Shown here piece by piece: positions 9,978 through 11,618 of a stretch of 64,000 nucleotides of DNA. The notes below the pieces were generated by a model. The model made no database searches. It was not told where the DNA came from and saw nothing but the letters and a program-made list of their open reading frames with translations. How positions within the stretch are numbered: the first letter of the stretch is position 1; every line of letters starts with the position of its first letter. A program made the position numbers and the translations under genes. Origin of the DNA: Butyriboletus loyo (taxonomy: Eukaryota; Basidiomycota; Agaricomycetes; Boletales; Boletaceae); the NCBI GenBank assembly GCA_038093515.1, contig JBBPSI010000011.1:248001-312000 (forward strand), read 5' to 3'.

Positions 9978-11533
9978 TCACAGGTTCCATCCGTTGGTTT
10001 GTGGGTTGGGACTTCCCCACCCCTGCTGGCCACCCCAAGCGTTCGTACCACCGCCTGAGTTCGGGCTGGTGCTTCCCCCCCAGGCGTTCTGAGCAGGGCT
10101 TGTCCCCCAGTTCGAGCCTCCTCCGGAACTCGCTGCCGGAGTTGCACCCCAACTACCAATATTTCCGCTGCTGTTCTGCGCCGGGCTTGGGCCGCCTCCC
10201 CAACTCCCACCGCCATTCCATCCACCAGCGGTCGGGCTAGCATAACCAGCGGCAGAGGCAGCTGGGTTCCCCCACGCCGTGGGTTGACTCCAACTAGCAC
10301 CAGCGCCGTTCACTGCCGAATCCATCTCCCCTGACACATCCATGTCCGAAGGTGCTTTAAGGCCGAGGATCAAGTTTGCCAGCTTTGTCTGGAGTTCCGC
10401 GAGACCCTGCAGCGTGTTACAATAAGTATTTATTAGCCTGGCAGCTACAGCTCACATACCTTCATGATGACTTCCTGCGGACCTAAGCTCCCGTCTGTTT
10501 CAACCTCAAAGTAGAATTTACGCGGCTTCGCATTGAAGTCGAACACTTCATCATCTCTTGGTAGCTCTTCCTCCTTTGCATTTTCGCTTACAGGCCACTC
10601 CGCCCGCGCATCGCCTTCGTACCAGTATGTTGTATGTCTCAGCTTGTTGTAAGGGTCGTATTCGAAAGCGACAGCAGAGCATGGTGACCACTTTGCATGT
10701 TCTTTCGCTATGCCCTGCCATCACGCTCAGTGAGATGCTCATGCAACATTCAATGTGCGCACCTTCTTTGCCACGCAACGCAGGCGCAACTCTTGCCCTT
10801 TGCGAATCTTACAAATCAAAACCGGAGGTACTGACGGGTCGTCTGGCAGGACGGGATAATGAGAAGGACCGCTGAAAAAGACAGAGCAACGCACTCTTCC
10901 CTACTGGGTACCCAAAGACCTCTCCTCGCTTCGTCAGCTCTTCGCCGTCCGTTATTATCTCTGACGGGCCAGCGTTTGATGTAAATTCAACTACTTCAAG
11001 GTGATTACTTGTGACTTCCATGGTCCGATTGTCGTTGCACACAACGTCTAGCCTCAGCTCGATCGCACAGTACCTGCATCCCGCCAAACAGGTACAGTCC
11101 TGAGCATCGCCAGAACTCGTCACGATTATTATTTTCTCAGCCCACGGGATGCGAGACGTACTCTAGTATAGCGCATGCCTTCGTCGCAATTCGCGCTGTT
11201 CAGCGGAATCATGCCGAGCCGATGGGCAATGAACTCGTCTGGCAACACCGAAGTGTTGGAGTGAATCTCGACCATGTCGATGGCTAGCTCGGGTTTTAGT
11301 ATTGCACATAGACTCTCTGGCACGTACGAACCGACTGTCGGTATGTCCGCCATGACCACCCTTCGAATTGAGTTTGCAAATCTGCCATGAACGACGGAGG
11401 TGAATGCGCATGGTCAAGTTGACACAGGACTTCGTACGCACGCCAGGTCGACATTTTCTAGCACAAAGTTCACCCGGTCTCTCCTCAAGTCGCGTATCCG
11501 TACGATAGGTTCTGTGTCTTCAAAAGATTGCAT
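9978..11533 (-). CDS. RPB3: RNA polymerase II subunit RPB3 with WG/GW-rich C-terminal tail
   Basis: Third-largest Pol II subunit, an alpha-like partner of RPB11 in the core assembly platform. The start at 11533 gives [20 protein letters not shown]. Exon 2 begins at 11381 after an intron that splits [20 protein letters not shown]. Further family blocks are [18 protein letters not shown], the zinc-loop piece [45 protein letters not shown] and [17 protein letters not shown]. The joint near 10880-10910 is ambiguous (donor after VFG or after PVGK). After the normal end near [13 protein letters not shown] the protein carries about 110 extra residues rich in Gly, Ser, Asn and Trp with seven WG dipeptides, ending GWNL. 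Yeast and human RPB3 lack this tail. The gene lies 85 bp downstream of the oxidoreductase stop. Confidence 0.95.
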
Positions 11534-11618
11534 GACGAGCAGTTCGAAAGGACCAACGGGCGAAGTACTACTAAGCTAGGAGGACAGCCCGGACCCCAAA
11601 CACCCCACCGACCCATAG

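Follow-up and report, generated by a model that had tools for sequence, protein, structure and literature searches.

A conserved tryptophan and Ser-Pro tail on the RNA polymerase II subunit RPB3 of Butyriboletus loyo and its likeness to the Spt5 CTR

The RPB3 gene and its last exon

The window, a stretch of 64,000 nucleotides (G000:C11:248001-312000) from the 30.3-Mb, 420-contig assembly of B. loyo, contains a complete gene for the RNA polymerase II (Pol II) subunit RPB3 on the minus strand at positions 11533-9978. By splice-site reading the gene has 7 coding exons, with GT/AG at all junctions, and encodes 410 amino acids. The protein matched Pfam families PF01193 (E 9.3e-19) and PF01000 (E 2.3e-16), its RNA_pol_L and RNA_pol_A_bac insert domains scoring above the Pfam cut-offs at 67.4 and 60.5 bits. 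When an uncorrected 426-aa model that retained a 48-nt intron in exon 2 was used as the query, it was 81% identical to RPB3 of Tylopilus felleus. The start codon and the last stop-bounded frame of the gene before it, which has the same orientation, are only 85 bases apart (11534-11618); by eye that gene's product looks like a protein of the quinone oxidoreductase type. The features discussed below are as follows.

11533-11442, 11381-11332, 11283-11162, 11099-10895, 10842-10763, 10714-10460 and 10406-9978, minus strand: RPB3 exons, by splice reading.
10406-10356, minus strand: end of the RPB3 core helix, in the same exon as the tail (the helix spans residues 262-284 of the modelled orthologue P0001).
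10355-9978 including the stop, minus strand: predicted disordered Trp/Ser-Pro tail of 125 aa from APSDM, with 10 Trp and 6 [ST]P.
10169-10137, 10118-10086 and 10088-10056, minus strand: middle units, three of 11 residues, in which W is followed by SP or TP after 1-4 residues (span 10056..10169).
10043-9978, minus strand: C-terminal box of 21 residues plus the stop, with Trp within the last 5 residues in most homologues.

The last exon is a single open frame that includes the TGA stop and ends in NGWNL, and no intron candidate of the form GT[AG]...CTRAY...AG of about 40-160 bases was found inside it. The original prediction, that a tail of WG/GW repeats follows the RPB3 core, was borne out in this open exon: the 125 residues hold 10 Trp in 7 WG and 3 GW, together with 30 Gly, 20 Ser, 18 Ala, 12 Asn and 11 Pro, and the first Trp codon begins at 10292. 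Nine of the ten Trp adjoin Gly, the tenth standing in AGASWSQ, and the tail also contains NAWGGQ. When the tail was shuffled, 7 WG were reached in 2 of 5000 shuffles and, in a second run, in 11 of 5000. A Trp followed by [ST]P after 1-4 residues occurs 5 times, as opposed to a shuffle mean of 0.7, and this number was reached in 7 of 5000 shuffles. An AlphaFold2 model of the Tylopilus orthologue P0001, built from 30 aligned sequences and weak overall (mean pLDDT 59), had pLDDT below 50 over residues 289-413, consistent with disorder.

It had also been claimed that yeast and human RPB3 end before the tail. This was true of the 275-aa chains, which we take to be mammalian, but not of S. cerevisiae, where Rpb3 continues past the core helix. 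The chain 1i3q_C, presumably S. cerevisiae Rpb3, ends in GNTGSGGYDNAW, a short tail with a terminal Trp (last letters GGYDNAW).

Conservation of the tail in Agaricomycetes and Ascomycota

We compared RPB3 C-termini across Agaricomycetes and Ascomycota and found that the Trp and their Gly neighbours are conserved in Agaricomycetes. Our homologue set for Agaricomycetes was the best 120 of 1829 matches (Agaricomycetes where named; records P0025 and P0115 are labelled partial). All of these best 120 carry the tail, with a median of 8 Trp (range 3-12), although the list is not an unbiased sample of Basidiomycota, since the tail adds to the score by which homologues were ranked. From the core helix on, the median length in the best 120 was 118 residues (range 58-162). 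The tails contain a median of about 5 [ST]P sites each, and the Trp are spaced at a median of 11 residues.

We aligned the B. loyo tail with its 12 nearest homologues, nine of which are named, all Boletales. Trp were 0.96 identical, as opposed to 0.62 for the whole tail, and random ten-residue sets reached 0.96 in only 5e-5 of draws. Neutral drift was rejected on these figures, Trp identity being far above that of the whole tail. Ser or Thr before Pro was 0.97 identical (other Ser/Thr 0.43), Pro after Ser or Thr 0.96 (other Pro 0.45), and Gly beside Trp 0.75 (other Gly 0.56). The terminal Trp stood at 1.00 and the nine other Trp at 0.92-1.00. Identities in four further groups, which were hand-picked and placed partly by likeness, are listed below.

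Polyporales (16): Trp 1.00; S/T before P 0.79, other S/T 0.32; P after S/T 0.79, other P 0.64; Gly beside aromatic 0.86, other Gly 0.61.
Russulaceae (13): Trp 0.99; S/T before P 0.78, other S/T 0.44; P after S/T 0.72, other P 0.72; Gly beside aromatic 0.85, other Gly 0.50.
Mycena (11): Trp 0.98; S/T before P 0.95, other S/T 0.36; P after S/T 1.00, other P 0.72; Gly beside aromatic 0.88, other Gly 0.46.
Other Boletales (7): Trp 0.83; S/T before P 0.86, other S/T 0.26; P after S/T 0.92, other P 0.17; Gly beside aromatic 0.72, other Gly 0.48.

Among the 12 nearest homologues, then, the [ST]P sites were about level with Trp in identity; in Polyporales and Russulaceae they fell below both Trp and Trp-adjacent Gly. 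Ser or Thr before Pro was held well above other Ser/Thr in all 6 of the 6 aligned groups, figures that lean on alignments prone to stacking W and P. Counts made on the best 120 tails without alignment gave 423 occurrences of W.{1,4}[ST]P against a shuffle mean of 56; SP was seen 498 times against 137 in shuffles, WG 594 against 247, and TP 29 against 75. Trp was rarely exchanged for Tyr or Phe (937 Trp, 21 Tyr and 30 Phe residues).

The C-terminal box, GW(G/S)SP..Q.NGWN(V/L), is near-fixed, with W.?SP within the last 25 residues in 110 of the 120 tails. Of the best 120 homologues of this search, 119 had a Trp among their last 5 residues, as did 103 of the best 120 from a search with S. pombe Rpb3, and the terminal Trp (W411) was nearly invariant in a mixed 30-sequence alignment. 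The RPB3 tail of Hygrophoropsis aurantiaca (P0017) contains near-perfect tandem 12-residue repeats, GGWGNTSPAQNA, which suggests that it grew by unit duplication.

The Trp/SP tail of RPB3 is therefore a real, strongly conserved feature. The presence of the tail in the best 120 homologues, its predicted disorder and the 96% identity of its Trp in the 12 nearest indicate that it is under selection. Absence from related fungi or free drift of the Trp had been put forward as grounds for abandoning the original prediction; instead, the tail is kept in relatives and its Trp vary little.

The search with S. pombe Rpb3 gave a second set, the best 120 of 1776 (Ascomycota where named), from which 118 tails were parsed after P0176 and P0190 were dropped. 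In a small tree, P0132 and P0176, at the least, fall outside the named Ascomycota. Each of the 118 tails has between 0 and 3 Trp and between 0 and 8 Tyr. The motif TP[YFW]G was counted 107 times (0.7 expected) and TP.?[YFW] 134 times (5.5 expected), and SAWGG was found in 21 and TPYG in 53 of the 118. The best 120 tails of the Agaricomycete search had TP.?[YFW] twice, against 10.6 expected. Among 21 hand-chosen Pezizomycotina the consensus was RSP...GYTTPYGN..SAWGGGTTPYGATPYGQNGW, with Ser or Thr before Pro at 1.00, other Ser/Thr at 0.46, Trp at 0.87 and Tyr/Phe at 0.63. Four candidate seeds for distant basidiomycete RPB3, evaluated by tree and BLAST, were discarded as nearer to Ascomycota.

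Fifteen of the 118 tails, Lipomycetaceae included, are shorter than 30 residues, and 11 of these 15 lack Trp. Tails of only 16-18 residues without Trp were seen in Lipomyces and relatives (P0125, P0129, P0130, P0131, P0135, P0136, P0138, P0139, P0143 and P0144), and the tail has apparently been lost in this one yeast lineage, judging from these sequences. Ascomycete tails share with those of Agaricomycetes the [ST]P and aromatic grammar and the terminal Trp, so the tail probably predates Agaricomycetes and is ancient in Dikarya. Across Dikarya the aromatic residue and the length changed, and the [ST]P-aromatic grammar and the terminal Trp mostly did not.

Candidate functions of the tail

Argonaute hooks are known from plant NRPE1, SPT5L, GW182/TNRC6 and fungal Tas3, and the original prediction likened the RPB3 tail to them. 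The WG/GW array would insert its Trp into the PIWI pockets of one of the fungus's Argonautes and bring small-RNA complexes to nascent transcripts. This reading was upheld as far as WG/GW in predicted disorder and the spacing of Trp are concerned, and it ran into difficulty with the [ST]P grammar and with the Tyr-based tails of ascomycetes; the Argonaute label is possible, is not our leading reading and seems unlikely to be the right one. In its favor, the WG/GW context exceeds chance in shuffles of the tail, Gly beside Trp was held above other Gly in every group (0.72-0.88 as opposed to 0.46-0.61), Trp were rarely replaced by Tyr or Phe within Agaricomycetes, and the tail is predicted to be disordered. 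Pairs of Trp at least 10 residues apart occur in 120 of 120 homologous tails; spacing of at least 10 residues is given for the Trp sites of TNRC6 in the accessible text of PMC9262622. Partners for a hook exist in this fungus, since PIWI exons of Argonaute genes were found on five contigs, C38 (two genes), C67, C6, C326 and C33. Contig C38 carries at 86000-94500 (L044) two Argonaute genes, closely similar by eye and opposite in orientation. VFRDGVSE in one corresponds to VFRSGVSN in the minus-strand copy, where the Asp that we take to be a catalytic PIWI residue has seemingly been lost.

On the other side, a hook leaves the conserved SP sites unexplained, and we know of no hook that needs [ST]P sites. 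The ascomycete version of the tail is Tyr-based (TPYG, 0-3 Trp), and S. cerevisiae, which to our knowledge has no Argonaute, retains the terminal Trp. Pocket positions are also partly replaced in the C67 Argonaute, a pattern that favors neither side. Taking Y698 to be a pocket residue, and assuming AGO2 numbers for four ALG-1 residues, we compared this one Argonaute with human AGO2 and QDE-2 and found the P590, Y698 and P700 positions kept, K660 present as Leu as in QDE-2, and F659, C691 and E695 not kept (Trp-pocket residues follow the available portions of PMC5147811 for ALG-1 and PMC9262622 for AGO2). WG repeats with another role are known as well, in the Spt5 CTR unit SAWGGQ (PMC4787787, in part).

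If WG arrays in this genome do serve Argonaute, a zinc-finger-like open reading frame on contig C2, rich in WG and free of W-[ST]P units, makes a plainer hook. This frame (L049:3472-4683, plus strand) has a CCCH-like segment, assigned by eye, and then a WG/GW array of 18 Trp, 14 WG and 10 GW with DNKD-type charged linkers, and may encode a conventional Argonaute-hook protein. It was among the first places listed from a genome-wide pattern search for clustered WG codons, which gave 394 matches as opposed to 297 for the reversed pattern, so that most matches are chance.

The repeat unit of the Spt5 CTR reads TP(M/L)YGS(R/Q) for human, TPAWNSGSK for S. pombe and SAWGGQ for S. cerevisiae; Cdk9 phosphorylates the CTR, to which Rtf1, Ctr9 and Cdc73 bind (PMC4787787, accessible sections). 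The Spt5 CTR profile PF12815 matched neither the tail nor RPB3, and the RPB3 tail is not a member of this family; some SPT5 homologues (P0268, P0271) also have no precomputed PF12815 match. The only match to the profile found in the genome was SPT5 on contig C67, a protein 86% identical to SPT5 of Butyriboletus roseoflavus. It holds NNAWGNTSPARP, and its TPAWNASSRTPNPY repeats (also written KTPAWNASSRTPNPYQDG) are followed by SGWGGGWGSGSSDNNAWGNTSPARPADASYSSW. From the best 120 of 967 SPT5 homologues, 118 C regions were parsed; TPAW occurred in 117 and WG.{0,3}[ST]P in 102, or in 97 after removal of units ending in RTP or KTP (the CTR proper). RPB3 tails and SPT5 had 69 6-mers with W and [ST]P in common, whereas dipeptide-preserving shuffles gave 16 (at most 30). 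A second module of WGGATP or WGNTSP type was seen behind the TPAW/TPNPY repeats in many Agaricomycete SPT5 (L043:4819-5403, P0241-P0360). When RPB3 tails were used to query the genome, SPT5 was not recovered, and a search of the PDB with the tail gave no match. The regular tail of Hygrophoropsis matched nothing in the genome, a result that says little because RPB3 itself was also missed.

As a generic aromatic sticker, the tail would gather Pol II in condensates by weak multivalent contacts, with no specific reader. Its Gly/Ser/Asn-rich composition, predicted disorder and spaced Trp (median 11) suit such a role, as does a length that varies from 58 to 162 residues from the core helix on; a near-fixed C-terminal box and conserved SP sites are more specific than stickers need, however, and there is little exchange of W, Y and F inside Agaricomycetes, and we consider a pure sticker an unlikely account of the tail. 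An improbable alternative is that the terminal GW motif alone is a docking site for Mediator or for Pol II assembly or import factors, the rest serving as spacer. The terminal Trp is indeed kept across both searches and W411 hardly varies, but the nine other Trp are about as fixed among the 12 nearest homologues, and across the four further groups Trp as a class stood at 0.83 in one and at 0.98-1.00 in the rest. We give very little credence to a drifting, functionless low-complexity extension or to an annotation artefact; the low-complexity composition and the repeat slippage in Hygrophoropsis (P0017) would fit drift, yet the tail is open and continuous with the core exon and recurs throughout the best 120 homologues.

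We favor a CTR-like reading; the conservation of [ST]P is the part that a hook leaves unexplained. Under this proposal, to which we assign slightly less than an even chance, the RPB3 tail is disordered, probably phosphorylated, and serves Pol II as a docking platform in the manner of the Spt5 CTR. Aromatic anchors, Trp here and mostly Tyr in Ascomycota, would alternate with Ser/Thr-Pro sites, and proline-directed Pol II kinases of the Cdk9/Bur1 type would phosphorylate the SP sites. Through its Trp the array would dock factors for elongation or RNA processing next to Pol II, and the near-invariant Trp at its end may act as one fixed anchor. The likeliest partners would be those that bind the Spt5 CTR, namely the Plus3 domain of Rtf1, Cdc73 and Ctr9 of Paf1C, and capping enzyme. 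The genome has CDC73_C exons, and Plus-3 exons at the family cut-off. In yeast, the C domain of Cdc73 contacts Rpb3 and the Plus3 domain of Rtf1 binds the Spt5 CTR (PMC5467213, available text), and the unphosphorylated Spt5 repeat of S. pombe binds capping and 3'-end factors (PMC10659198, in part). We infer that the tail hangs from the RPB1/RPB3/RPB11 dock side of Pol II, below the RNA exit channel; at that site a cap-binding domain of viral origin inserts among the three subunits and is touched by C-terminal residues of human RPB3 (accessible part of PMC13128444). In S. pombe, mutation of the Spt5 CTR has an effect on RNAi-dependent heterochromatin (PMC10659198, same excerpt), and a CTR-like RPB3 tail could therefore touch RNA silencing without binding Argonaute.

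A wider generalization is more doubtful, and we offer it tentatively. Dikarya may have a third Pol II phospho-repeat platform, an aromatic-SP/TP tail on RPB3 with a near-fixed terminal Trp, situated on the RNA exit side, whose readers would also be those of the Spt5 CTR. The Agaricomycete form of this platform would be built of Trp, would have grown to about ten units and might also engage Argonaute, coupling elongation to RNA silencing, a link that genetics supports for the Spt5 CTR of S. pombe.

Significance and comparison with known systems

Standard accounts of Pol II name a single repeat tail, the Rpb1 CTD, alongside the Spt5 CTR. If the CTR-like reading is true, a docking platform on a third, core subunit, present in mushroom-forming fungi and as a Tyr form in Ascomycota, would have been missed by work on S. 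cerevisiae and human, in which the tail is short or absent. The RPB3 tail would also help to decide cleanly whether, on the transcription machinery, WG repeats mean Argonaute or elongation factors. We found no description of such an RPB3 tail among the matches listed from open-licence PMC literature, as far as the text of those sources was accessible, and the words Rpb3, Argonaute and tryptophan are absent from the available main text of a survey of elongation factors (PMC13289920).

The closest likeness is to the Spt5 CTR. Both combine aromatic residues with Gly/Asn and Ser/Thr-Pro repeats on a component of the Pol II elongation machinery; AWGGQ in the B. loyo tail, like SAWGG and TPYG in RPB3 of ascomycetes, corresponds to CTR units of budding yeast and human, and the WGNTSPA idiom is common to the RPB3 tail and boletoid SPT5. 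The tail differs in that it stands on RPB3 and not behind the KOW domains of Spt5, and its units are irregular. The order of the motif differs as well, SP following W in Agaricomycetes whereas TP precedes the aromatic residue in the CTR.

With the WG/GW Argonaute hooks the tail shares tandem WG/GW in disordered sequence and a Trp spacing of about 10 or more. Unlike them, it has conserved SP sites and a Tyr version in Ascomycota, and its link to Argonaute is putative. The Rpb1 CTD likewise carries aromatic residues and SP in repeats on a core Pol II subunit, but the RPB3 tail lacks YSPTSPS heptads, uses Trp and not Tyr, and has a median of only about 5 [ST]P sites. The yeast (S. cerevisiae) and human RPB3 proteins have the same core domains, and the yeast protein also has a short tail with a terminal Trp; human RPB3 lacks such a tail, and that of yeast has a single Trp and no WG array.
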